Shown piece after piece: positions 45,588-64,000 of a stretch of DNA of 64,000 nucleotides. The notes below the pieces were generated by a model, which worked only from the letters and a program-made list of their open reading frames with translations, did no database searches and had not been told where the DNA came from. Source of the DNA: Polytrichum commune (Eukaryota > Streptophyta > Polytrichopsida > Polytrichales > Polytrichaceae); NCBI GenBank assembly GCA_950295325.1, contig OX485807.1, positions 21,735,666 through 21,799,665 of the forward strand. Reading direction: 5' to 3'. A program made the translations under genes and the position numbers. Each line of letters starts with the position of its first letter. The stretch's first letter is position 1.

Positions 45588-47022
45588 CAGTCTAACCTTG
45601 ATAATGTCACACCATCCGTTTCACCAAAAAGAGTGATATAAACAAGGTGTGACATATTTGATAATGTCACATTTTGAAGATTTGTGCATAATGTGATATT
45701 ATCAAAAAAATAGGTAGAAAATCAAAATAAAATTACAATGTAAAAAAGAAAATAACAAATACGAGACTTCAATGTTTTTGAATGTAAAATCTAATTCAAA
45801 ATTGTGAATAACAACAAGAGCACATCATAATGTGTCATTGAGATCAGGTAAAGACCTCTCACTAGAGACAAAGAAGCTTCTAATGTCACATTGTTTTGTT
45901 GATGTTAAATGTGCAACACCAATTCTAATGAGTTTGTCATGGATTTTTTCCATTCCTAACAACTCCAGAGTGTTGAAAATCTGAGAACCTTGGCTAGCCA
46001 TAAAATTCAAAACATCTTTAGCATATTTTTGTGCATCGCTTAGCTTCACTACTTTAGACTCATCATCACTGCTATCAACAATCAATGGGTCTACTTCCAT
46101 GGAATCAAGAACATGTTCGCCATCTTGCACTAATTGCACAAGCTCCTCAGTAGAATATTCCACCTCAAAATCATCTTCACCTTTCATGTTTAAGTACTCC
46201 AAAGGACAAAGCTTTTCTATAGGCTTGCCTTCGACATCCAAACCCAAATTCAATGCGGCGATGAGATTGCCCAATTCCAAAGCTGCTTCCTCCATTTTGG
46301 ACTTCATACGTTCATCAAAATTGTTGATATTTGCATTCCACTCTGTAGGCAATATGGCGGACTTTCTCCAACAATTTCTAATGGTTTGATCATCTAATTC
46401 ATGCCATGCCACCACACACCATAGCATAGCTTGAAATAGATCAACATTCAGTTTCCCCAAATCTTCATTTGAGTGGTTATCAATTTGTTGCAAAGTCCAG
46501 GCATCAAGTTTGCCCTTATGGCACATTTTGAATGTTGCAATCACTCCTTGATCCAAAGGCTGAAGAACTAAAGTCACATTTGGTGGAAGGAACAAGATAG
46601 TGATATGGGAGAGTACAAAAGCATTAAACCCATCTATAACTTTCTTGACCTCACCATGAATATCATGGCTTCCTGCATTATCCATAATAATGCAAATCTT
46701 TCTATCTTTCAATGCCATTCTTCGGTTCTCACTCTTCACCCAATGTGTAAAAACATCACCATTCATCCAGGCTGAATTGTTAGAATAATAGTGTACTGTA
46801 CTATTCGGCTACTACAATATGTCCATCCAACCATCACATGCAATCCATCCATACTTGGTATTATCACATTTACACTACAAATTTTGAAAAAAATAGTGAC
46901 ATTACCAAGGGTGATAGGGATAATAATGAGGGAGTTTTACACTATGAAAATCGGTTTCAAACTTTTAGGTGACAATATCAAGGTGTTCTATTAACAAGGG
47001 TGACATTATCAAGGTTAGACTG
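45588..47022 (-). mobile_element. Short Tigger/pogo-type element with complete ends and TA duplication
   Basis: The outer 23 bases at 45588-45610 (CAGTCTAACCTTGATAATGT...) and at 47000-47022 are perfect inverted copies. TA lies directly outside both ends (45586-45587 and 47023-47024), the Tc1/mariner target duplication. Further GATAATGTCAC-like words lie just inside both ends. The element is about 1.44 kb, shorter than full pogo/Tigger elements, and encodes the C-terminal part of the transposase on the minus strand, so it looks internally deleted. Confidence 0.92.
45825..46766 (-). pseudogene. Tigger/pogo DDE transposase, N-terminally truncated
   Basis: 313 residues in one open frame. The second catalytic Asp is in CIIMDNAGSH (Asp29 of this frame) and the third in LPPNVTLVLQPLDQGVI (Asp72), both in the form typical of the DDE_1 superfamily (Tigger, pogo, jerky). 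The frame is open upstream to about 46800 with '...NNSAWMNGDVFTHWV', which also fits the family, but the part carrying the first catalytic Asp and the CENP-B-like helix-turn-helix DNA-binding domain is missing, so it should not be an active enzyme. The rest is an acidic C-terminal tail. Confidence 0.85.
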
Positions 47023-47024
47023 TA

Positions 47025-48691
47025 ATGAGAGAATGTCGGCTCTCAAGTAGGTAGTACGTTTCCTTTTCAACCTCCACCTCAACTAAACAATTGCCTTTGT
47101 TGCAGCCATGGCTTGAAGGATCGAGGGATGTATCATGCATGTAACCTCCTCAACATGAAAACATTAGGAACTAATTAACGAAACAATTGTCAATAATTAA
47201 GATTCTAAGTTCTTGAATTTTACTTGATTTACTTCAATTAGCACTTACATATTTATACATTACAAAATATACTATGAAGTAAAATTATCCTCGAATTATG
47301 ATAAGATGTTTTACATGAAGTTATTAAACATACCACTATCAAGCAGTGTGCGTTCGTTCAAGTGGGCCCCACGAATATAACCATGGGATGCACAACCTTA
47401 CACAAGGAGACTGAAATTTGGACTGAGCTCCCAATATCCCATGGTTATATTTCGAGGGCCAACTTAATAAATGCATACCAATTAATTATATTATGAGCAT
47501 ACCTAGAGTTGTTAATATAGGTAATAATGGAATAAGTGATTTATATTTGTAATGTTTTTCACAAGTTCACATATCATCCTACTTGGGTGATTTCCAATCT
47601 CAAAAATTGATTAATTATTTGTTATTTCCTAAAATAGATGTTCACATACTTGAAATCGACATTCTTTTTAAAGTTTTCTTTGCTAAATTTGATTTTTCTC
47701 TAATCATTTAATTTCCATGATGTTGGTACTTTTATGAAATGCTATAATTCCCATCAAAGCCACCTTGACATGATAGTATTCGCCATATGATGCTTCACCT
47801 TTGGAAATTAGACTAGGTAGGTACTTCTTACATGGCTTTTTTTTCCTAATAAAATGAAATTGATTTTAAAGTTTGGGAAGCCAAATAGGATGATGGGACT
47901 GAAAGTACATCAGATGGTTTCAAATTAGTTAATTTTCTAGAGTGGCCGAGTGCCCTTCTCAAATACTTTCCAATGAGAGTTTTTCAAGTTGCCTCCCAAA
48001 CTTCGGTGCCATACGTGAAAGTAGGAAGCACTAAAGCCTTGAATAGGTGAGATTTAAGTTCCCAACATGTGACGCCGACTAGCGCTTCTTTCCTTAAAGA
48101 TCCCATCAACGCTTTCATACCTGCGATTCCTCACCTTTAATCAGATGACTCAAAATAACCATGTGTGAAAACTACTTAACTAAAACCTACTCGAAAATCT
48201 CCAAAGCAAGTTCTTGTAAGTGCATTAGAATAGCCGGATGCCTTCACTGCAACCGAAAGGGCTTTACCCGGTTTTTAGGAAAAACTTTGGTTAATTATTT
48301 GGTAAAGTTAGATGGTTTGGGGGCATAATTAGCTAGCTCATCCCCATTGGTCCAAGCCATGGACTTTAGATGCCTCTAAACCGATAATAAATAGAAGTAC
48401 TAATACGACCACGAGTCACCAGTATGATACTTAAGTGACAACAAGTTGCATCATGATGACCTAAGCGGCCTTTGACTATTTTGGGTGTAATTACTAAGTG
48501 AGCACTAGCATGCTAATATAAGTAGATTATAGGTGGGTGCTAGATTTTGACAACTTCACGTTTTTTTCATTTGTTTTACTTTGTACTAATACTGAGTAAG
48601 TTTTTGTCAAATCACTTTCTATAATCTAGGTTTGGGGCTGGTTTTAGAATATGGTGAAGAAGTGCATTAGTCCGTCAAGAATTTTCATTAA
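47025..48691. other. No gene; contains a miRNA-precursor-sized hairpin
   Basis: Apart from the hairpin listed separately, only short unsupported frames occur. The last 60 bases before the U6 sequence (about 48630-48690) recur in inverted orientation near 51130-51190 (shared TTAGAATATGGTGAAG and GTGCATTAGTC), so the U6-LINE chimera sits in or next to a dispersed repeat. Confidence 0.4.
47358..47465. repeat. Foldback hairpin of about 108 nt (possible MIRNA or mini-element)
   Basis: GGGCCCCACGAATATAACCATGGGAT and its near-complement downstream (ATCCCATGGTTATATTTCGA...) form a stem with 17 consecutive pairs around AATATAACCATGGGAT and more pairing towards the base, closed by a loop of about 46 bases. 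Size and structure fit a plant miRNA precursor, but small foldback elements look the same. Confidence 0.4.
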
Positions 48692-48793
48692 GTCTCTTTG
48701 GAGACATAAGATAAAATTGGAACGATACATAGAAGATTAGCATGGCCCTTGTGCAAGGATGACACACACAAATTGAGAAATGGTCCAAATTTT
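48692..48793 (+). ncRNA. U6 snRNA-derived sequence (retrocopy), 5' part of a U6-LINE chimera
   Basis: Full-length match to plant U6: 5' stem-loop GTCTCTTTGGAGAC, then GATAAAATTGGAACGATACA, the ACAGAG-box region here reading ATACATAGAAG, AGAAGATTAGCATGGCCC, GCAAGGATGACAC, GAGAAATGGTCC and the terminal AAATTTT. Roughly 11 of 102 positions differ from the plant consensus I know, mostly C-to-T or G-to-A. The ACAGAGA box carries G-to-T, which should impair splicing function. No upstream sequence element or correctly placed TATA box precedes it, so it is not a working U6 gene. LINE sequence starts directly after its last T. Confidence 0.9.
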
Positions 48794-49600
48794 ATGGGAC
48801 CCGGATCGGTGGAGGTGGATTGACGGAGAGCGTTTTCTCAATTACACCACTAAGGATGGTAGGGATTCTATCATCAACAGGAACCCGGGTATCACTCATG
48901 CAGCGGATAAATGGCAAGGCTACCTTTTGGGTAACTATAGGTTCTACTGGTCGCAAGTTTGGGACCTGCTTAGGGCCGGTGAAGAAGTTGCATTCATGTG
49001 GTTAATTTGGCACAAAGTTGTGGCGGTTAATGAGTGGAGGGCTTGCATTGCACCGGCATCAATCTCCAAGCAATGTGTTTTTTGCCTTCCCAACACGAGT
49101 GAATCGGTCAAACACAAAATTTGGGACTGCATCCAAGCGAGAAGGGCATGGAGGTGGCCCACTTTTATTATGCATGAACTATGTGGGGTTAGGACCCAAT
49201 AATTACGATAGCTTTAATTGGAAGCAAGCTCTACTTGAGGAAAGGATCCCCAAAAAATATGCCAAGATGATTCAAATATGGCACCTTCTTAGAGGCACTG
49301 GACCATCTAGATTGAGCGGAACGACAAAGTGTTCAATCATGAACAATGGCATGAATCTAAGGTCAAGTTGCGGATTTGGGATGAACTCATCATCTATGCC
49401 AAAGCGGCTTGGAACTGGGTGGTTCTGGATTTGCAGGTGAACAAATTAAGATTAGTAGGTTCTTTGCGGCAACCATGCCCCAAGGTTTTGACAAAACTTG
49501 GGACGCGAGGAACGTCCTTTGTAGAAGGCACAATCTTCATATCGAGTGGAACTGGAGAAGACAATGTAGATAAGGGGTATTTGTGCTCTCACTAGAGCGG
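48794..49600 (+). mobile_element. 5'-truncated LINE (non-LTR retrotransposon) 3' portion, joined to U6
   Basis: The frame 48780-49202 encodes the C-terminal zinc-binding domain that follows plant LINE reverse transcriptases (zf-RVT): 'YRFYWSQVWDLL..GEEVAFMWLIWHKVV' then CVFCLPNTSESVKHKIWDC (CxxC...E...H...C) and 'RRAWRW'. The protein continues after two frameshifts in other frames ('WKQALLEERIPKKYAKMIQIWHLL', then 'RNDKVFNHEQWHE..KLRIWDELI'). Only the last few hundred residues of the element are present. The 3' end was not defined; no poly(A) tail was recognised before 49.8 kb. Confidence 0.8.
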
Positions 49601-52194
49601 GTATGGTGGTTAGGGGGTTGTCCTTGGCTCAATGGGTCCGGTGGGTTGTCCTTCGTGGTGGTTGGTCTTTTTACTTTTCACGTGGCGGTGTATCGTGCTC
49701 CATTCTTCTAAACTAGCCCTTAAATACAAGTGTGGTGGATTACACTGCTTATAGTGTCACATGCATAATAGTGTTACTTACCCTATTTTGAGGCATATGC
49801 TAGGTGATATCAATTATCAACTTCATCATTATTGTCACCTTATGACACTTGGTGTTCAAGAGTGCTAAAATGTAAACATATGACACTTGCCATTAGAATG
49901 CTCAATATTATCTTTTCCTTGCATATTAAATTCCAAAACTATCATCTCAAAGTGTTCCAATGTGCTACACTTAAATGTCATAATGTAAATGAATTCTAAC
50001 TCAAAAAGGTTACTTATGTTGATGAATAGTTTCATGTTGGCAATCACATGATGTGACACTTTGAGACCTCTAGGCATCTACTTTAGTCCCTTCGCAAATA
50101 GTGTACATAACATTGAATGCCATAAACAATGTACTTCTCTTAATTGTAATGTGTCCAAACTTCAAAGTCCATGGTTTGAGCTAGTTGAAATGACCAAGTT
50201 TGAAGTACCCTCATTATGGTTATTGGTGTGGAATGGCCCACTTACTTCCAAAATACGACTTGGGAATATTATATGAATATGTAGAGAAAGACAGTGATCA
50301 CTCGTGATGTCAACCTTGGGTTGGCATGAATGAGGGATGCTTCACCTTTGATCATAGTTGCAAGCTCATATGTACATTGTGAACTTGAAATGGGTTTACT
50401 AGTCATGGCTTCTAGACAACTGTTATTGCTTCATGTTGGAGTTGGTCCCTTTTTGATAGAGGGGGTGGGGAACCAAGAAGGCCCTTTTGGTGGTCTAAAG
50501 TTTGTAAATGAACATGCATGCTAAGGATTGAAGGATGCAAAGCATTTTATCACATGAAGCAAATTAAGCACTCATAGTGATCTACTAGTAGGGACCATCA
50601 ATAACTATTATTTTACCACCCAAGGTATGTTGATTCTCTTCAAATGAAAGCTACTTTACACTACGTTGAATGGTTGTATAACATTATTCATACATGTTGG
50701 TCTATAAAGTGAGCTCATGATATAAAGGTAAACTCATTTCAACATCAACACTAGGGATCAATTCCTAGGCGAGAGGTGAGGGTTGGTTTGAACTACAATG
50801 ACGAAGTGCACTCATCAATCAAGAATTTTCGCCCAAGACAAGGTTACTTGAGGCAATGGTGGTATGGAAGACAAGATGAAAAATAAAGTATATATATAGA
50901 CATAGTTGGGGTTGTTGGGGTTCTCCGGAGGTCAAGTTGTCCAAGACTTTGATATTGCCCAAGGAACTTGACCTTTGAAGAACTCCTTATGTCATTGCAA
51001 AAAGTGTTGTCATGTTGACATCCATGACATTTTTTCATCCATGCTTGAAATTCTCCACTAGAGGAGTCTTGGCCATGGTATAAATCCCGACTGGTGAAGA
51101 ACCCATTTTATAGCCAATCATGTTGCTCCATTCTCCTAAAACTCTTGACTAATGCACATCTTCACCATATTCTAAGCTAGGCCTTAGTCTAATGTGAGTC
51201 TCTTTGCATGGGTAACTGACCAATTGTTGCCTACCTCTTTGTCCCTTACGGCAAAACATGTTCACCCTTTACAAAGCTCTTGAAAATACACATTCATTCC
51301 TTGACATTGTGAGGGTTCAACTCAAAGGAGCGGCAATTGTTAAAAAAAATTAAAAATAGAGCACAACTCAAAAGAATGTGTAGGATATGCTAGAAGCTTG
51401 CTTTGGAGTGTCACAAGTCGATGGTGTGAAGGGCAAGCTTCAAATCCAACAATTGAAAGTCGAGTGGACATCGAGCAAGAGCCCAATGTGCTCCCCATAG
51501 TTGATCACAATCCTCACAATGCCAATTCATGCGTCTCCGCAATATGGATTTTGCCTATATGGAATGGCTAAGCTCCCTCTCCAAAATGGCCATGAACTCA
51601 ACCTAGCTTTATCCGCACAACCATAACCCATGCCTTCACAATCGCACTTGGGAGTTTTCATGGACTTTCGGCAACTAGAAACGATATTTTTTTAAATGAA
51701 AATAAGATAGAAAAATCTATTTGTTTTTGTAATTGCAAACTCTTGTTGTACACCAACGATCTTTTACTTGTGTGCCCTAGGGCCTCAATGTACCCATCAC
51801 ATACGTACTTATCTTCTGTCAAATGTCGATACATGGTTCCATGTCCCAACCCCACCTTTCGGCGCCATCAACACTCGCTACTATTTGACACTAATTTTTG
51901 AGCTTTCAACCATTGTAATTTGGTTTTTACAAACGGATTACACTCCTAATGTATTTGGTTTTTTGTATTTAAAAAAATTGTCATTGATGAACAATGTTAT
52001 GTTGTGACCATTGAAATCTACAATCTCTCTTTGGTGGAAGATGTCAAGACCATCTCACCCCACTTTACACTAGAGCTCGAGGCCCAATGAGCAAAGGAAG
52101 TTCAAATGGATTTAAAACCGAGATGGAATCTTGCATGGCATGCAAGAGATAATGTCTCATAATCTGCCCAATTTTATACCAAGTCCATCCCAAA
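49601..52194. other. No gene recognised
   Basis: Long non-coding stretch. GAAGTGCACTCATC.ATCAAGAATTTTC near 50808-50830 and the inverted TTAGAATATGGTGAAG copy near 51150-51180 both resemble the sequence just before the U6 copy, so part of it belongs to the same dispersed repeat. No coding similarity. Confidence 0.4.
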
Positions 52195-52350
52195 TAGGTG
52201 GATGTAACACAAAACCAAGAGACCATGACATTTCAAGATGTCATGATCTTTGAATTTAGTATGTAGAGGGGTCCACATGAATAGGATGGTGAAGAAATAA
52301 GTAACATTTGGTTGAATGCTTAGTTGCGTCTGTCTTTGCACTACACTTAA
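52195..52350 (+). repeat. Dispersed repeat family, copy 3 (partial)
   Basis: Contains ACACAAAACCAAGAGACCATGACATTTC and the phrase order 'gaggggtccacatgaatag ... catttggttgaatgc ... cactacactt' seen in the copies at 39.1 and 59.9 kb, but is more diverged and covers only their second half. Confidence 0.55.
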
Positions 52351-55300
52351 CCGCACCAAATTTCAAGTTCTAATACAAAGTGCCTATCAAATTCACTCGA
52401 TCTTCACATTTCATGGACGGTAGCGTATTGGCATGCCATTTCCACGCAATGATTGTGAGGGAAAATTTAGTGGTGTTTAAGTAATATACCATGGATCCGA
52501 AAATCTCCAAACCTTGAAGACATCTTGTAGATCTTATCATTTCCCTCAAGTAATGTCCACTTACATTAGTTGGTCATGTCCATGTAAGAGTTGACATGAT
52601 TGAGGTGAACACAATGTAAGGGGGACATGATGTAAATTGGCATTTTTCCCTTAAATTTCACCCATGTTGGTATGTATCTATCTACTATCTACCTCTTTCT
52701 CATCCATACCGACGATTGAGGGTGATTGTTAAAGTTTAGTCCATGAGCCAATACGGGATTGGGCCTGCATTGTCCCGGCCCTCATGCAACCCTAGAAAAA
52801 TATCTCAACCCAAACCAAAATTTATGTCTCGCCCCGCCCAACCTAATAACAAAGTTGCCATTGCTTTCTTGAAGGGCCAGCTTGCCTACAAAATTCATAG
52901 TAAGTGCATCTCACCTTAACCCCTAACTTTCAAACCTTGATTTCCCTCTAATTTGCTCACAAAATGTGACCTCAATTTCAACGACATTAACTAAAGAACT
53001 AGAGGTTGTTTGACAAATCCAACTGTATAGATGTTTGCAAGTTAGGGGTGACTACTCATAATCCAAATTTAAATGTTGAAGATTTGATGTGTAGGAGAGT
53101 ATAATAGGAATGCCACTAGTGATCTTGAAGTGCTAAATTTTATAAATTAAATTGGGGTTGGTTTTTTCTTATCGGATCTCCACTCAAATCATCTCCAAAT
53201 GAAAAAATGCTACACTCATTCAAAAGAGGGACAATTTACCCACTCCAATCAACTCATAACTCTTAAAACCATTGTTTTATAGTTTTTTGGGGAAGCTTTG
53301 CAATTGGAGGCAGCGGTGTCACAATTGCGCACCTTCCATGTGTCCAACTAAAAAATTCCATTCGTAGAAGTATAAGATATGTTGTGTTTGAGTGTCATGT
53401 AAACTTTCATATCAATAAGGAATCATTACGCGTAAGGATCAACAAAACAAAACATGTTTAAGATATGTTACCCCTAAACCACAGAGGTGACAAATGTCAA
53501 GCAGGTTTCCGTGGACTGGTTCCACTGTGAACCAATTGAGAGCATATTAAAGGTTAAAGGCCCAAAATCACACACACACGGACAGATCGTGTGTGTGTCC
53601 ACTTCCATACAGAAAAGACACGATCAACCAAGAATAAACCCTCATAATGAAACCATTTAATAATGGATTATAATCTGGAAATAAAAGAAGAGAAATAACT
53701 CATAAGGTATGAGGTGGTTTTTATTTGTGCCATATTGAAAGCCTGCAACTAAGGCAACCAAGAAATGTAACTTTTTGCTGCAGTGTAGATGAATATACAC
53801 AAGTCCCCAGATTTTTCACTGATTGATCTTCACATGAGCTAACTCCTGCAAGTTGAGGGGGAAAGCTCAGTCTCTAGTCTATCTCCTTGAGTTATCACTT
53901 TCCTTTGTCATCAGCAACTTTGAGCAAATATGTAAATATTTCATGCAGAAGGCATGGGGTTACAACCTCTCCGGAATATTGAAAAAGTTGTGCATGCAGC
54001 ACTCTCTCCATAGAGATGACCTCAGCTCATCAAATAATCAATAATAATAAAATAATGAGGTATTGCAGACGTTCAGGTGATGTTTCGTAGCACCTATCAA
54101 GGGGAAGGGTGAATTGCTAACTATGTAGAGCCTATAGATTACTAATTTAAACCAAATTAACACGTAAATCAGGATCAAAGACCCCAAATTAGTCCAGTGA
54201 GGCTAAATTAGGAAGATCAGCAACAGACTTATAGGGTGCAGGTTTCACCTAGGCCCCATGGTAGGTGCTGGAAATAAAATCCCAAACATGTATGTTGACT
54301 GCGATTTGAAAAATGCCAATATTGTCATATTGAAACATTAAATTTTGGTGCAACTATCATATGCTAGAAAAAACTGACACTGACATGAAGTGAGCTTATG
54401 ATACAAAGTAGTTCAAGTATCTAACTGCCTTCAAAAAAGTTCATTGTTGTGTTTACACATTGACAGGTGGGTAAAAAAATTCAGTTTGGTACTATTTCCA
54501 AAAAAGATCTGTATGGATGAATGTGTTCCAAATTTTGGTTTTTGGTTTTTGGTTTTGGTATCCCCCCCCCCCCCCCCCAACATGGTGGGTCAATTGGACC
54601 TTTGGGCCACAGGCATTGAAAAAACTCTGAAAATACGGCCTAGGTGTGTACCTTTATATGTACGAACCTGATGTTTTCAGAGTGCATTGAACAAGTTTGC
54701 TACTTGTGACAACCTTGCTGGTGTGGCATCTGATGGACATTCAGTATCTCAAAAAGTAACAAAACAACAAACCGCTCAACTATATTTAACTAGACTTATC
54801 TTCACACTCTTATAGAAATCTCAGCCTCTCAATAACACCTATTTATCTACCTCAGAACCCACAGAAAGGACTTAACCTTAATAGATTAGAAAAGGAATGT
54901 CCATATAATGCAATCATTGTCTGTTCTGTTCCTATCATATGCCAGATGGGGTTTCCAGATCAAACACTATGAGCTGGCCTAGAAGGCACAATGTCCCAGT
55001 TGTTTGAAAACTGGATGTGGAGCCTCCTCAAAACTTGATGTGATGTTCAAGGTAAACTCTCATCGACACAATGTTTCACCTAGAACCTAGGGTTCAACAC
55101 TTTGTTGGCATTATCACCTCATACTTCTACAATCGCATTTAAAGCACTACAAAATCCAGAACAGACTTCTCTCATAGTGCGTGAAAATGAGAAACATACC
55201 TGACCTACTTAACAATGATGCCGGCTAGATTTGTAGAAGGTCAAACTGCAAGACTGATAATTTAGTCTAATTGTAACAACTGGACTAAGTGTGGATGCAT

Positions 55301-55580
55301 GCATCAACCATCATCCGCAAGTGGAAAACAAACAAGACTACTGACCAATTGGAAAAAGGTCAAAAAAACCTCATCTCATATACTTAGCAAGAATAGGTTC
55401 ATGCAATAATCATCGTCAGCATGCGGTGTCCCCCCAAACAAACAAAGAACCAGCCAGCATTTAATGGGCTGGGAAAAACTGAGAAAGACAGCCATCAGGC
55501 AAGAGTTTTAAGGCCAAAGTACTCACCGTCATCCCCAAAGGAATAATTCTAATTAGCTCCCCTGTTGACATTTCAAGATC
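52351..55580. other. No gene recognised; 3' flank of MAX2 at the right end
   Basis: Short frames only. A CA/GT hairpin (CACACACAC...GTGTGTGTG) lies near 53569-53602 and a C run at about 54562-54578. The last few hundred bases are probably MAX2 3' UTR. Confidence 0.4.
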
Positions 55581-58016
55581 TTAATCTGGAAATCCCCGCT
55601 TCGCCACTGCCGCCTCAAATCTCTGACACGAGATTGCTCGTAGCTCGGTATCCAATTCAGGTGCAGGGTAGTAATCCCCTCGCAACTGCACATCCCGCAC
55701 AGATCTACATCTCGCAAGCATCATAAGAAAGTGCTCATGTGTCGTTCCATGCACAAACAACTTGCGTAGGTTCCAACACTCAGCCAACAAGCCTGCAGCA
55801 GGGAGAGACAATCCTCGTCGATTCACTTCTTTGTCCGATGGAGGTGAGTAGTCGAGCTCTATAAGCTTCAACGCGCTTACACCTGTCAAGTAGTGGCGTT
55901 CCCACAAGCTTAGATCCATAAACCCCTTGGGCGCACTGAGTGAGAATCCGGTGACTTCACTAAGATCTAGGTTAGCTTTCTGCAGTTTCGGGTAGCGAAC
56001 AAAAGATTTTATACCCCAGTTGACATTGGGCTTCAGCAATTGCCGACTGTCGCCTTCGACTTTCACTTTCAGTTCCTGCAACATTGGGCATGACCCAAGC
56101 CCCATTGCCGGCAAGGGCGAGATCAATAATCCTACAGGTAACCATAGTGAAAGAACCTCAAGAGATTTCCATTCTCTTCCTAGAGAGTGTTGTGTTCTTG
56201 GTCCATTGTGAGATCCAACTCCTGCTGAAACTGTTGATGTGTTTGATGCATCTGTGGCACAATGTCCAGAGTGATAATTGCTTCCTTCCAAAGCGGTGCA
56301 AGATGCACTTGAAGATGCATCTGCCACACTTATTGGACCTAGACCCCAATCTCTACCATTTTCAGGTACTGCTGCATTGCGACGGCGCTTTGCGACCAGT
56401 CTGTGAGGAGGCAAGGAGCTCTCCCTTCTTTTGCCAGTCATCATCATCTCCTCCCTGCCATCCGCACCACAATACCCAAAATTGGGTTCCGACCAACTGT
56501 TCATTGCGATGTTGGTAGGGAGACCAAATCCTGAGCGATCAGGAGTTTGAGATGAAGGCGTAGATGTTCTAGCCATAGCTGCTGCCTCTTGTTCCAGAAT
56601 CCCTTTATCCCAGACACAGTCTAAGTACAGATGCTTTACAGATGTTAAAATTGGCTCAAGTCCCTGCAAAGTTGTTGCGGTTGGCAGCAACTGGCAGAAA
56701 GCAACTCCAACATCAATCAGAGTGTGAGACAAATTGCCAACACATGAACGGAGGCCCTCCTCTGTGATACATTTACAGTGTTGTAAGTGCAATGTGGAGA
56801 GCTTCGAACATCCGATTGAGATTGTCCGTAGTGCTTCATCTGTTAAGTCTGCACAACTTGTCAAGCATAGCTCCTGAATTCCAGTACAAAGTGCAATCCC
56901 GTCCAACTGGGGGCCCATGCAAACACCATGAAAATGACTTAGTTTTAAGGAGCGGAGCTTCTTGCAAAACGACGCACAGACTTCAAAGGAGGGACCCACA
57001 TCCCGTATGTTCTGTGATAGAAGGAATACCAACTCTTCAATCAGAGGCAAAGCTTTGAACATTGCCTCCAGACCCTGTCGTGAGAGGTTGGAATCTTCAC
57101 TTGCGTATCCATCTTCTTCAACATTACGCGAAACCACACCCCATTCTTTGAAATCGACCAGGTGAAGAACTTGTAGGCGTGGACAATTTGTAGCAATGGC
57201 AAGCAGAGCATCATCATCTACAGAATCCAACAAACGATGATCAAACTCGCAGAGTATGTAGAACTCCTCAAGGTTAGGGCACCCGGTTGTAATGGCACCC
57301 ACTTCCTGCGCTTTGAATCCTTCCGGCGAGAGTTTCAGCAAATTCAGAACTCGTAAATTTGCTGCGGTCATGGCGCCTACCTGTAGAGCTGGTGGAACAT
57401 CCTCTGTCCAGCAGTAGAACTTTGAAAGGTTGAGGGCCTTCAGCTTCTTGCACCCATTCAGTATAGCCTCAATTTCACAACCAAGGGCCATTGCCTCCGA
57501 GTTTTCCATCGCCCTTTGATGCCACCGCACCAAACACAATGATTCTATGTCTGGCCACAGCCAAGCCACCATTTGAATGTCCAGAGCATCTCGGACATAC
57601 ACAGTGAGGTCTGCCACATTGGGAAAACCGGTTTTCAACCACCGACCGATGTCTTCGCCATTCTGGGTGGATTGGAAGAGAGAGTATCCCCATGGCGAAC
57701 AATGCGAGAGATCAAGGGTCGTGACTTGTTTGAAGCACATCGGCAGCTCCTGCATCCCATATATGTTACCTCGAAGGGACAGTACCGTCCGTGTTTGTCT
57801 CTCTAGCCAATACCAATCCCTACAGGTAAGTGCCATGCAATTCCGCACTCTGGGGTTGAAGATTGTGCTGAAAATGTTGACGAGGATCACATTCGGTATG
57901 TCACCGATGTGCGTCTCCTGTGCACACTCCTTGGGTGACAAGTGACTCTCCATCAGGTGATTATGGTCAGGCTCTGCAGGCATATTGATAAATGGCCGCT
58001 GCGGCAATGTGCACAT
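55581..58016 (-). CDS. MAX2: MAX2/D3-type F-box leucine-rich-repeat protein
   Basis: Substrate-receptor subunit of an SCF E3 ligase in strigolactone and karrikin/KAI2-ligand signalling, nuclear. One exon, 811 residues; an in-frame TAG lies 18 bases before the ATG. An F-box spans about residues 36-80 (IGDIPNVILVNIFS...). LRRs follow with family-specific phrases: LDLSHCSPWGYSL, LVRWHQRAM, LNLSKFYCWTEDVPPAL, KLRSLKLSHFHGVC, LCLTSCADLTDEAL, then VKHLYLDCVWDKG; after a variable insert, LEVLSLWLPVG, MDLSLWERHYLTGV, LSLPAAGLLAECWNLRKLF, HGTTHEHF and DYYPAPE. It ends in Asp, as in rice D3 and Arabidopsis MAX2, where the C-terminal helix and its end residue are regulatory. The insert (about residues 476-610, Ser-rich with basic KRRR) is longer than the acidic loop of Arabidopsis MAX2 (693 residues). 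Starts at Met12 or Met22 are also possible. Confidence 0.95.
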   Translation of the reverse strand: MCTLPQRPFINMPAEPDHNHLMESHLSPKECAQETHIGDIPNVILVNIFSTIFNPRVRNCMALTCRDWYWLERQTRTVLSLRGNIYGMQELPMCFKQVTTLDLSHCSPWGYSLFQSTQNGEDIGRWLKTGFPNVADLTVYVRDALDIQMVAWLWPDIESLCLVRWHQRAMENSEAMALGCEIEAILNGCKKLKALNLSKFYCWTEDVPPALQVGAMTAANLRVLNLLKLSPEGFKAQEVGAITTGCPNLEEFYILCEFDHRLLDSVDDDALLAIATNCPRLQVLHLVDFKEWGVVSRNVEEDGYASEDSNLSRQGLEAMFKALPLIEELVFLLSQNIRDVGPSFEVCASFCKKLRSLKLSHFHGVCMGPQLDGIALCTGIQELCLTSCADLTDEALRTISIGCSKLSTLHLQHCKCITEEGLRSCVGNLSHTLIDVGVAFCQLLPTATTLQGLEPILTSVKHLYLDCVWDKGILEQEAAAMARTSTPSSQTPDRSGFGLPTNIAMNSWSEPNFGYCGADGREEMMMTGKRRESSLPPHRLVAKRRRNAAVPENGRDWGLGPISVADASSSASCTALEGSNYHSGHCATDASNTSTVSAGVGSHNGPRTQHSLGREWKSLEVLSLWLPVGLLISPLPAMGLGSCPMLQELKVKVEGDSRQLLKPNVNWGIKSFVRYPKLQKANLDLSEVTGFSLSAPKGFMDLSLWERHYLTGVSALKLIELDYSPPSDKEVNRRGLSLPAAGLLAECWNLRKLFVHGTTHEHFLMMLARCRSVRDVQLRGDYYPAPELDTELRAISCQRFEAAVAKRGFPD

Positions 58017-59834
58017 ACCTAGGCTCCTCTTCTATGTCATCATCAACACTACTTCAGTAATAATCCATCGTCTGTCGTAGAAGTAGAACTACTTGACCTC
58101 TTAAATTAAGAACGCTGTGTCCACAAGTTCCTGTACGCCATGAACAAAAGCAATTGCAATCACTCGACCAAGTGAATCGATTGTAGATGTGCACGCTCTG
58201 ATGGCACTCAATGCACCCAAAAGTGGTGCAAGGTTCATGACCTGTTGCATGTGTGATGTCTATCTGGGAATATCGAACAAAAAGCTGGCACATCTTGTGC
58301 CACAGTTACCGATAGGTCAAAATGAACATGTGCCCGATCTTCCAGTTAAGCTATATGAGGTAGGAGAGATCCAACCAGGTCATATATATACGGATGGAAA
58401 AAACAATTGAAGGCGTGGTATGAGGAAGAGAACGTCAAAAAGGCAGCCTTTCAAAATCCCCTAATCCCCAGCATACATAGATAACGAGAGAGAGAACTTA
58501 TTTATGTTACCGTATCAAGACTTTTGCATTTCAAGTTGACAGTATGAGGTACATGCCATCCTTTCCGGGGCCACAGTAATCCAAACAGAGAAGAAGATAA
58601 AAACATTCCGGAAAAACCTCTGGTGACAGTCGAAGAAGTAGCCTCTTTTTGAACGGGTAAATTAGGTGAAACTTAGCAAGAACCTCTGCCCTTGCCAGAA
58701 AACCCTAAATGGGTCTCCCCCCTTGTCAGTTCTGTAACCTCTCTTCCAAATGATGAGCTTTAGGAGGGATAAAAAGTAGTAACATGTAGGCTTCAAGATC
58801 AGGAGTGAAGTAGGAGTATTGATGAAATCACTGAGGAAAGCGGCAGACTCCTAACTTAGCATCTATGGACTCAGAGGGACCCGGAAACAAACAGAATCAC
58901 AACATCCGAGTAGACTGAACTGACATAAGGTTACATTCACAACATCCAGAGCAAGTGGTCGCCTGAAACTCTGTTTCAAGCTGCCACCGAGGTCCAGAAG
59001 ACAAACCTAGGAAGAGACATCCTCACCCTTAAGGAGGAATTGTATGCCAATGAGACGAAGTGAGAAAACAAATAGTGACGGACTCCCGCGAAAGCCGCAA
59101 CCCCCACAGACGTAATTACATCCATGTCCATCATAATTCACATGCATAACACTCAAACGTCCAGCAGATGACACAAGAACCTCACTCCTCTTACAAGAAA
59201 CTAAACTAACTCGGATGTTGTTGGAATTGACGGAATCGAGTAAACAATCGGCCGATCAATACTTCATCCAGGATGATGAACTAGCCCTAGAGTGTGGTGA
59301 GTCAGGTCAATCACTAGGAGCACACCAATCAACCAAACCTTTGTGGAAGCCTCCAAAAAACGGCAGCCTACCTACATCACAAACTTGAAGACTTGAGTAA
59401 AAGCTATGGTGGAGCCCATACCGCAAAGAGCAGGGAAAACAGATGATCAGAGAGAGGTAAGCTTAAGCTTAGCAGGAAACCGTAAAGGAATGCAAAACAA
59501 GAGCAACACTTGAGCAAACGGCGCTTAAGTCTCAACTTGGTCAGCAGCAAGCTTGAGAGAAAGCGAGAAAGAATTAGTTTGCTCTAAAGGCCAATAAGCA
59601 CATAAGTAACCAGCTTGTTGAAGCGCGCAGACATACAGGCTGAACTTGAAGCATCCGTGTAAGGTTACACCAGCTTGTGCAAACGGCTTAAGATACACCC
59701 GCGCCCATGGCCTCCGACAGCCTGCGCACGGCAGGGCAGGCAAGGTTGGGAGAGATGATGAAGACTTATTAACGCCACCCCAAGATGATTACGAAGTTTC
59801 AAATAACCTAAGGGCCACTCCACACACGAGACTG
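58017..59834 (-). promoter_or_regulatory. Upstream region of MAX2
   Basis: No coding frame with family similarity on either strand. An AAACCCTA telo-box lies near 58699-58706, about 685 bases before the MAX2 ATG; telo-boxes occur in many plant promoters, but chance occurrence is likely. No TATA box was chosen with confidence. Confidence 0.3.
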
Positions 59835-60185
59835 ACAGCCCGTGACCAATTCTCTTCAAGCACTCTCATTGGTGGAAAAGGCGGAGCCCGTCCAAGTTCG
59901 CTTCACACTACGCTTGAGGGCCCAACGGAGTATGAGAGTGCAAGATGGATGTAAAGTGTACATGGATTCCTACATGGCATCAAATGGATCATGTTTCATG
60001 GTCACTGGGACTATTTTCAAACACCATCTCTTGGAGGTAGGCCTAACACAAAACCGGGAGACCGTGGCATTTCTGAATGCTCACAACCGTTGATTTATTC
60101 TATTATATCATGGTTGAGGACCCGCACAAATGGAAATTCATTGAAATAGCATTTGGTTGAGGGCCCAGCACATATCACTTCACAC
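59835..60185 (+). repeat. Dispersed repeat family, copy 2
   Basis: Direct-orientation partner of 39121-39460 with roughly four of five bases matching by eye over about 320 bp. No terminal inverted repeat, poly(A) tail or target duplication was recognised, so its class is open. Confidence 0.8.
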
Positions 60186-60372
60186 TGCACTTGAAAGTTT
60201 GTGACCACGCTACATGATTTTGGAAGTGTCTTGGGACAGCCTTTGGACACTTTCTTTTGGGCTCTAAACAATTTCATGGTCACGGTTTTTGGGCTCGTGT
60301 GTGAAGTGACCCTAAAGGATTGGAAGAACAACGGTGCAAGAGAGCTAAACCCACAACCTCCGAAGTGCATAC

Positions 60373-61296
60373 CAGTGTTGAACGGGTATCTGTCCAGCAC
60401 ACGGGTTTGTAAAAGGGTATGTACATTGGTTTGTGATACCAGCTTGAACTACCAAGCAGTGCGCAAATACCAGGTTCATACCCGGGCCCTGGACTCACTG
60501 CCAACCCTAAACCTGGTCACTAACCCGTACCTTGCTCAACGATGAGCTTGGAAACCCTTAAACATGCACGTCTTTGTTCATTATGCCTGCTTCCGGCGAT
60601 GTACGGGTTTGTTGTGTGCACAACGTACTACAAGTAGTGGAGCTTTGTTGCTGGGGTTAAGCTAGCAACGTTGATTAATGTGGGAGAGAGGGTGTTGCAC
60701 CTTCAAGAAGAGGTAATTCCGTTTTGTCTTTGCTTGAAGCACCAACTTCATATAACAACTAGGGTTTGTGTTTGCTAAACAAGTTTAGTGAAGAGGAGTT
60801 GATTGCAGCGGGTGAGCTAGAGTGAGATTTAGCTTGAGGGCATTGTTTGATTGTTTTTTATCAATTCAATTTTGTTTGATTAAACTGATGTTGGTCGAAG
60901 TAGTCCATGTTGATCCGATTCAATACTTAGTCAAGCATGACAATTTGATAAATTCAAATCATGATTCAATTTGATCAGTTTGCTCAAGTTCATGCTTCAT
61001 CTGTTTTGGATTTTTTATTTTTTATTTTATTAAATTATTAAATAAATAAATTCTCTCTTAAAAACCTTAAAATGACATACCATACCCTTGCACTGGGCAC
61101 CCTGGAATATGAAAAAAAATCACACCATAACATGTACCCTAAAATTCAAGAAATTTTACAAGACCACATACACATACCCTGCCTTGAAAATACAAAACCT
61201 TTGTAATATCAATACCTCGATGTTCTACATTTCCAAGAAATTTTCAAAAACCAGGCCTCCCCTGTATGCACTTTACAACATACCCGTTCAACACTG
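60373..61296. mobile_element. Non-autonomous hAT element with perfect 8-bp target duplication
   Basis: The ends are perfect 17-base inverted repeats (CAGTGTTGAACGGGTAT at 60373-60389 and its inverse at 61280-61296). GTGCATAC flanks both ends directly (60365-60372 and 61297-61304), an exact 8-bp duplication as made by hAT transposases. The 924-bp interior has no transposase frame and is A+T-rich near 61010-61060. Confidence 0.93.
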
Positions 61297-61304
61297 GTGC
61301 ATAC

Positions 61305-62387
61305 CAATGAGGGAAAACCCACAAATGTACAAAAGTTATTTTAGTTGAACCCCCACCACTATTACCAATGTAAAGGGGGTCTACATTGATTATCTCAAAT
61401 TAGGTGAGGGTGGTACTAGGTAATCGGTGTCCACAAAGATTTTTGGGCATAAACGGTTATGATCCTAGCATTTCCAAGTCGAACCAATTGCATGTTGTGA
61501 TCTTTCGGTTTTTCTTTATTAATTTGAGGTATATTCCATGAATTCCTCTCAAACGATTGGTGTTCTTCATGGAGACTTAAACTTCAACTGGCCATTTCTC
61601 ATACTCAACCGGTTCATCTATAACTAGCAGTTGGTTCTCCTAGTTTGTTGGTACTAATTTCCAAAGCACACACTATTTAGCCAAATCTCAAAGTTATCGA
61701 GGGCTGAAATTTTAAATGAGTGACACTAAATTCATAAATACATGCTCATTTACCAGAGATTTCAAGAAAGTTAGCGCATGCTCTAAGGTGTTTGTGGAGT
61801 GATGAGAAAAAACCCATTTATATGGAAACCCATGTTTGTCAATAATATAGTACCAAGTGCCAATACTTTCAATGAATAGTGGCAAGTCCTTGTACTTTCA
61901 GCGAATAATGTTGTTGTGAATAGTATCGGGATGGACAATGCTTGCTAGATCTTTTGACAACACTAATTTCATAGCATAAAGAAATTTAGTATCACCTTCA
62001 CTAATTTCCCATAGCCATTATTAGCCCTCCCTCATTACCTAGGATAATTAATGTAGTAAAAACATGACTCTCATATCTTTGTGGTTTATTCATCTCAAAT
62101 AGGTCCCTCTAGACTAATTTAAGACCACATATGTTAATTTTTTTTAAAACCTTGTATGCTATAATAAAATATCTTGCATTTTCGTTAGGGATAAAGATAT
62201 TAGGGGCCCAGCTCAAAGAGATGGGCATCTACCCTTGGTCAAAAGGTAAAGGAAGGGAAGTTGAGCTACTAAGCTTAGCCCAGTTGACAATGAGACACCC
62301 AACCCATCACAATAACAGTTGCAAACAATACCAGATTCTGGCACTCAATCCCCCCACCTGACCCACTTAGGACTAGTTGACGAACAC
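61305..62387. other. No gene recognised
   Basis: A+T-rich non-coding sequence with short frames and no recognisable repeat ends. Confidence 0.4.
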
Positions 62388-62389
62388 TA

Positions 62390-62795
62390 CACTAAATATT
62401 GTATTTAGTGCCACCATTTCTATTTATCTTGCTCAATACTAATTGTAAAGTGCCCATGTAGTGCCACTAACACTAACTATAAACCTAACATCATTTGTCA
62501 GTCCTCGTTTAAATAAAAATAATAAATAAATTGGGTGTTACATACTTACAATGTTGCAAATAATGCCACTCACTAAGTGATTTTTCATCCAAATTTCAAT
62601 CGTCCATTATAATATTTCATTATCATAAGTGTCAAGATGCAAAATAATAGCAAACTTTGTTCAATAATTAGCATGTGAATGAACGACTTGTAAGTTAGAA
62701 TGACATTATTTGTAAACTTATTTATGAAAAGTGTCATTATCAAAGTTACCACAATGGCATAGGATATTGTATGAGACTAAGTACAATATTTAGTG
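62390..62795. mobile_element. MITE with TA target duplication (Tc1/mariner or Stowaway-like)
   Basis: CACTAAATATTGTA at 62390-62403 is repeated in inverted form at 62782-62795, and TA lies outside both ends (62388-62389, 62796-62797). The element is 406 bp, non-coding and A+T-rich. An internal GTGTCATTATCAAAGTT near 62728 is reminiscent of the Tigger-like terminal repeat at 45588, but the match is short. Confidence 0.7.
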
Positions 62796-62797
62796 TA

Positions 62798-64000
62798 ACA
62801 TGTCATTGACTAAGTATTGATATTCATGGGGTTTTCTTCAAAGTTTGGTCTACTTCTCCACTGGATTGGTTTGGGCATCTTGTGTAGGATTCAATCTTGG
62901 GTCTATGGCTTTTGGTGTTGTGCTTAGTTGGGTAGTATAGAAAGTTGGTGGTTAGAGAAAGAGGGGGGAGGGAGGGGAGAGAGATGTAGCGATGGAGATG
63001 GTGACATGTATATTTGTGTATGGGTCGCAATGGATATTGGGGAGGTGTACATGTTTTCAATGTATTGTAGGTCATTAGTTTGTGATTGTAGGTAGTGTTT
63101 GCAGTGTACTTTTTGGCGGTATTCATGTGTGGCGTGAGTGTAGTGATTTGTAAGGACGAGTTCGTTATGTGCCAAGTTGTAGTATGTTTGGTTGTGGAAG
63201 AGGTCTTCTTTTGATTCTTGGAAGTCTTACTTGTCATTGTATCCTATGTCATTGTGAGTGGCATAGGCACATGTGTTTGGAGTTCATGATACTAGTGGAG
63301 TTAGGTGTGTAATCAATTTGGGCATCATAGATGGCATGTATGATATAAGTTTGTGAGTTTGGGTCGTGTTGATAAATGGGGAGTGAGGGTTGGGTGGGGG
63401 TGGGTGGGTGGGTATTTAGGGAGGAGGGTGAGATTATTTGTTTATGGATACAAGGGGGTGTGCATTGTGTATTGCATCAACAATGTGTGTAGCAAAATAG
63501 TCTTCTAGCATCAGCAAAGGCCTAGCTAGGGTTTGTTTGCTTTATCATACATTTGTCATATTGTAATTTGGAGGTTTATGGAGTGAGGATGTGGGTGCAT
63601 GTGGAGTCAATTATGTTTCTAAGAGTGGTGAGCTGTTGATTGAGGAGGGCGGTATGGTGCTAGTTATTTGTTTTAGGAATTAGGTGGAAACAAGACCTCA
63701 ATTGAACTAGAAGTTTTTAATTGAGTGAGTTTGAATAAGCTATTGCCTCGAGATATTAGGAAATAGTAATGGGAAGGACTATGATTTGATAGAAAGGGAT
63801 GTGTATTTATAAATTTGCACGTGTTCATTGAAGGACATTCTTTCTCTCTCGCTTGCTCCTCGCAATATGTAATCTATGACAACACTCTCAACTTTGTAAA
63901 GTCTTACTCTTCAAATGTACACTTAGACTTCTTGTCTATAGCATTATGTGTGTTTTGGAAGTTGTGAGACTATTAACTATTTTTTCGAGAAATTAAAGTG
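62798..64000. other. No gene recognised; G-rich tract
   Basis: Open frames on the minus strand (62824-63237) are low-complexity and lack support. Purine-rich strand asymmetry is marked from about 62930 to 63660 (long runs of G and A on the plus strand). See the separate G-quadruplex entry. Confidence 0.35.
63387..63420 (+). other. G-quadruplex-prone tract
   Basis: GGGTTGGGTGGGGGTGGGTG and further GGG groups give at least six runs of three or more G separated by one to three bases, well above the four-run minimum of a quadruplex motif. It lies in non-coding sequence. Confidence 0.75.

Follow-up and report, generated by a model that had tools for sequence, protein, structure and literature searches.

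A probable U6 snRNA–LINE chimeric retrocopy in Polytrichum commune and two further fusions of U6 with a second LINE family

The window analysed here, a 64 kb stretch of the 407.8 Mb genome of Polytrichum commune (OX485807.1:21,735,666–21,799,665; feature coordinates below are those of the window), carries on its forward strand a full-length U6 snRNA sequence at 48692–48793, which ends in TTTT and is abutted on the same strand by the 3' part of a LINE at 48794–49698. The U6 part, the sole Rfam match at the gathering threshold within the window, spans the whole of the RF00026 model (positions 1–105 covered by 48692–48794 of the forward strand; 97.1 bits, E = 7.1e-24) and departs from the common sequence of the U6 genes of this genome at 8 positions. 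The last base that certainly belongs to it is T48793; A48794 may be assigned to either U6 or the LINE, and the gap between the two parts is zero. The original prediction had described a complete U6 ending in oligo-T with the 3' part of a LINE joined to it without a gap, and both descriptions hold: the model is covered in full, and similarity to other LINEs mostly sets in at 48794/48795. A complete U6 whose 3' oligo-T is joined to a LINE is the arrangement that characterizes U6/LINE chimeric retrocopies.

The LINE part amounts to about 900 nt, comprising the end of an ORF followed by 3' UTR, with similarity to other copies reaching 49698 at most, about 100 nt beyond the end at 49600 originally given. 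Its reading frame, open at 48777–49202, resembles the ORF of another LINE copy (L004), in which Pfam detects a zf-RVT match just below the curated cut-off (E = 1.9e-5); the 141 residues of the window frame matched no Pfam family, and two further copies (L097 and L098) show, by eye, segments typical of plant LINE proteins that Pfam did not confirm. We sampled this family as 20 copies fetched from among the matches listed, plus L002–L004. In 18 of the 20, upstream LINE sequence runs past the join point, as judged by eye; hence, the U6 tail marks the point at which the window LINE is 5'-truncated. The two exceptions are L055, which is similar only from about 48850, and L056, which adjoins a different repeat 4–5 nt away. 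LINE copies that begin at the join without a U6, which the original prediction had named as evidence against it, are rare (1/20, namely L056 beside its other repeat). As for a parent element, relatives do exist; those scored are about 73–82% identical over long matches, the exception being the 92% match of the L001 copy discussed below, and no recent parent is found among the matches listed.

Copies of this family carry a version of TTGGCCTTCTGTCTC at their 3' ends, with an A-rich tail behind it. The window copy falls about 85–90 nt short of this point, and both its A-tail and its 3' flank are gone. We looked for a displaced 3' end by comparing 11 family ends, via BLAST, with both strands of 49400–64000 and found none: beyond 49698 the sole match is one of 20 nt on the minus strand (56725–56744), obtained from two of the 11 ends. 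An insertion pushing the LINE end downstream is accordingly rejected. Close to where LINE similarity ceases, 49752–50133 belongs to a highly abundant repeat (3970 candidates at first look). Elsewhere in the genome, L024 (C4:35940492) and L056 have one repeat end, ...GTTGCGTACCCGGG, in common: in L024 it directly precedes a U6 that is 5'-truncated, and in L056 it abuts the LINE near the point corresponding to the window's junction.

On the 5' side, U6 starts where one end (end A) of a MITE-like inverted-repeat element breaks off (48635–48691, forward strand), so that about 55 nt of the MITE end directly precede it. All five MITE copies compared match the flank within 48632–48685 (81–90%), a 29-nt motif of the element has 119 matches in the genome at up to 3 mismatches (control, 0), and both arms are visible at 11 of 15 fetched loci. 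The remainder of the interrupted MITE was not found after the LINE, and the interruption is therefore visible on one side only. A further MITE at 50777–51183 shares repeats with 48633–48686 and was considered as this remainder; it is a complete, different copy, matching all five compared copies at 70–75% over about 400 nt, and was rejected. A scan of 48794–51500 against the 5' flank for a target-site duplication gave one 12-nt match, at 50819, which was discarded, as it sits in this other MITE; the best repeat on the 3' side, at 49691–49760, is trivial, the LINE 3' end and flank being lost both here and in L001. Among the best 40 of 1095 candidates scored for an empty site, L001 alone matches the whole flank, the others matching only its first ~105 nt, which are a repeat. 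We propose that U6 entered the MITE; the LINE tail, the 3' duplication and the rest of the MITE could then all have been removed by one subsequent deletion. Further upstream, 45825–46808 of the minus strand holds a transposase fragment in which a DDE_1 domain is recognized (E = 1.4e-23), pogo/Tigger-like by eye.

The window block recurs, inverted, 3.27 Mb away on the same contig (L001), where 48251–48870, i.e., the 5' flank, U6 and the first 76 nt of the LINE, is matched at 93.2% over 621 columns with the same zero-gap, same-strand join. L001 cannot be counted as an independent insertion, since it has 440 nt of 5' flank in common with the window. The flank, U6 and LINE parts are about equally diverged between the two (94.2, 94.2 and 92.1% identity, respectively), which implies that the join is older than the duplication.

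Truly separate cases emerged from a genome search for other U6–LINE junctions, as the original prediction had suggested, and there are two of them, L016 and L033, both with a second LINE family. In each, a promoterless U6 is followed by about 100–115 nt of the 3' end of this other LINE and a T-rich tail; the LINE 3' tail is thus present here and absent at the window and L001, where we read it as lost later. The tail is linked to its LINE through L079, in which tail and protein occur together, and L080. Among the larger copies found with the L080 protein, L101 has an RVT_1 domain (E = 4.2e-31) as well as one for RNase H (E = 2.6e-14), and L100 has an endonuclease domain (E = 3.1e-9). By BLAST the tail matches L101 at 73.6%, and its match to L100 is by eye only. 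Between the reverse transcriptase and RNase H, both ORFs tested (L100:1604–6292, plus strand; L101:820–5883, minus strand) also have a segment resembling PCIF1_WW (E = 3.4e-7 and 3.5e-7; 30.4 bits, where the cut-off is 31.1). PCIF1 itself methylates the cap adenosine.

A single duplication bracketing U6 and LINE together, which had been put forward as the mark of one insertion, is seen with one mismatch each at both of these loci: AGATTCACAA/AGATTCATAA at L016 (9/10 bases) and TGGGTCACATAG/TGGGCCACATAG at L033 (11/12 bases). Random pairs scored as well in 91/20000 and 47/20000 draws, respectively (0.2–0.5%). For L016 there is also an empty site, its flanks matching one continuous stretch in L027 and L002 with an overlap of AGATT; none was found for L033.

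The junctions of these two fusions fall at a recurrent point of the second LINE. Of the 20 tail copies fetched, nine have their start within -7 to +2 of the anchor GGAGGCATAAC (or a variant of it), and the LINE similarity of the U6 fusions starts at +1 (L016) and -3 (L033) of the same anchor; since the 20 were chosen from at least 40 listed by similarity to the L033 tail, 9/20 is not a genome-wide rate. In the larger copies, a CCTCC/GGAGG hairpin is predicted within a larger fold, and the anchor region makes up its loop and 3' arm. The simplest reading would be that the enzyme stalls at this hairpin and then either ends or jumps to U6. At the junction of the window family, no such truncation hotspot is seen in the 20 fetched copies, nor is a common hairpin obvious by eye in the folds of four copies.

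Whether these U6 sequences are genes or retrocopies is indicated by their upstream regions. Genuine U6 genes in this genome carry CCCATA near -63 and, in many cases, a TATA-like box near -30, with a spacing of 23–25 nt, a layout resembling the plant USE and TATA arrangement. We scored promoters with a weight table built on the 13 top-scoring copies; for shuffled upstream sequences, the 99% level is -1.5. Among 43 U6 loci, including 2 below the Rfam cut-off, 29 score above 0 (13 of which trained the score) and 14 do not. The window (-14.3), L001 (-12.4), L016 (-31.4) and L033 (-19.6, with a USE-like string misplaced at -58 and a spacing of 7) all belong to the latter. As the window U6 has no promoter of the kind found at real U6 genes and begins inside a MITE end, we take it to be a retrocopy. 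A LINE of either compared family directly follows U6 (~0–6 nt, same strand) at 4 of the 14 low scorers, representing three events, the L016 tail having been identified by separate comparisons outside the 43-locus run; this is true of none of the 29 promoter-bearing loci. At four loci (L036, L013, L018 and L010), matches to the comparison set lie further off, at 71–207 nt. The remaining 10 low scorers have no LINE at the tail, and several of them (e.g., L008, L012 and L013) are more reminiscent of decayed genes than of retrocopies. In the search for U6, the best 48 of 37556 candidates were scored, such that diverged copies may be missed; a pattern search gave 34 places (control, 0). As a check on specificity, 0/20 U1 and U5 copies have either LINE family at the 3' end, the nearest LINE match beginning 59 nt downstream; this control is weak, as the copies, drawn from the lower-scoring part of the matches listed for each RNA (10 of at least 47 U5 and 10 of at least 42 U1), still come from among the best candidates, and many of them look like genes. 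Three U5 copies recur as a set, in unchanged order and with identical scores, at C4:5.21 Mb, C4:5.26 Mb and C50, perhaps through a recent duplication or an assembly duplicate.

At the level of U6 sequence, six copies (the window at 48692–48793, L001, L006, L012, L016 and L019), two of which represent one duplicated event, have T or C in place of the G that follows ACA in the ACAGAGA box. This G adjoins the m6A site of U6.

Taking these observations together, we consider it likely that the window holds a U6–LINE chimeric retrocopy formed in a single insertion, by template switching during target-primed reverse transcription. Briefly, the LINE enzyme would have nicked its target inside the MITE end and started copying LINE RNA from the LINE 3' end. 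Copying would have stopped about 1 kb into that RNA, whereupon the enzyme would have jumped to the 3' oligo-U end of U6 snRNA and copied it to its 5' end. Copying the LINE and then U6 in this manner would place both parts in one insertion with the same orientation. For the window itself, we infer a single event and a join made by a template switch rather than through a ligated RNA. The resulting copy is very probably dead, with neither a promoter nor a LINE 3' end.

The original prediction had left room for both a template switch and a ligated RNA. Its interpretation is supported by the joined structure, the lack of a U6 promoter and the duplications at L016 and L033. In the second of these routes, U6 RNA would first have been ligated to a broken LINE RNA, the joined molecule then being reverse transcribed as one template. 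This route, which is a stated alternative for the mammalian U6/L1 chimeras (PMC13174262), is expected to yield the same product, namely full-length U6 on the same strand within one duplication, and the stop point could be imitated if the RNA were cut at the hairpin of the second LINE. However, the junctions of L016 and L033 lie at a common 5'-truncation point, where 9 of the 20 fetched tails of the second LINE stop without any U6; a stalled enzyme explains this directly. Hence, template switching is favoured, and we regard prior ligation as unlikely.

For L016 and L033 alone, one may ask whether they are members of a low-copy U6-headed SINE with one founder rather than two captures, given that they are alike in their U6 end and in nearly the same LINE position. 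SINEs derived from snRNAs do have an snRNA head and a LINE-like tail; in contrast to these, no amplified U6-headed family is seen among the matches listed here. A search with the U6–tail junction retrieved both parts in only 2 of the best 40 of 402 candidates, these being L016 and L033 themselves. Moreover, against the common U6 gene sequence their U6 parts have no identical change in common, and the shared junction is the common truncation point of the second LINE tail. Accordingly, we hold a shared founder to be quite improbable. Each does share changes with the window U6, namely C8T, C58T, C61T and C83T for L033 (three of them at CpG) and G75A for L016, which could have arisen in parallel through decay or stem from one variant source gene. 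Finally, that the window arose through two events, i.e., a U6 retrocopy and a LINE landing side by side or brought together by rearrangement, would accord with the lack of a common duplication at this locus, whose LINE 3' end and flank are gone, and with a block that has undergone at least two rearrangements (one removing the LINE 3' end, the other giving the partial copy at L001), but is very improbable in view of the zero-gap, same-strand join at the U6 tail and the like arrangement at L016 and L033 within one duplication around both parts.

These findings may be set beside known systems. In mammals, U6/L1 chimeras consist of full-length sense U6 placed ahead of an L1 that is either truncated or full-length, in many cases with duplications, and both template switching and RNA ligation are proposed for them in two accounts (PMC13174262; PMC4476161), the former of which gives U6 as the commonest L1 chimera partner and the latter several features of U6 and L1 as reasons for the preference. 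Our fusions resemble them in having a full-length U6 on the 5' side with its U-tail joined to a 5'-truncated, same-strand LINE, and, at L016 and L033, in the single duplication. They differ in occurring in a plant genome, in involving two LINE families, of which one encodes RNase H and ends in a T-rich tail, and in the hairpin-side junction hotspot of the second family. A further parallel is the MINE element of Magnaporthe (WEIRD-MGL), for which a host RNA fused to a 5'-truncated LINE is described, along with independent insertions sharing switch sites beside strong predicted hairpins (PMC2104539). WEIRD is not related to U6 in that paper; its switch motif is GCC*A/U. The word "plant" is absent from the main text of both mammalian papers, and a literature search, mostly outside subscription journals, returned no report of a plant U6–LINE fusion.

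What is new here is thus a known kind of U6–LINE chimera in a plant and with two LINE families. The three separate fusions with two unrelated LINE families suggest that plants make the same type of copying accident as mammals. Given the common stop point of the second family, one enzyme and two RNAs would suffice for a direct test of the template-switch model. A plant in which U6 is fused to two LINE families offers an independent test of the reasons proposed for the U6 preference. Two unrelated plant LINE families having used the U6 3' end, one of them at a hairpin stop, we give even chances to the broader proposition that LINE enzymes in general land preferentially at this end. If this is true, the preference known from mammalian L1 would belong to U6 and target-primed copying rather than to one LINE lineage.
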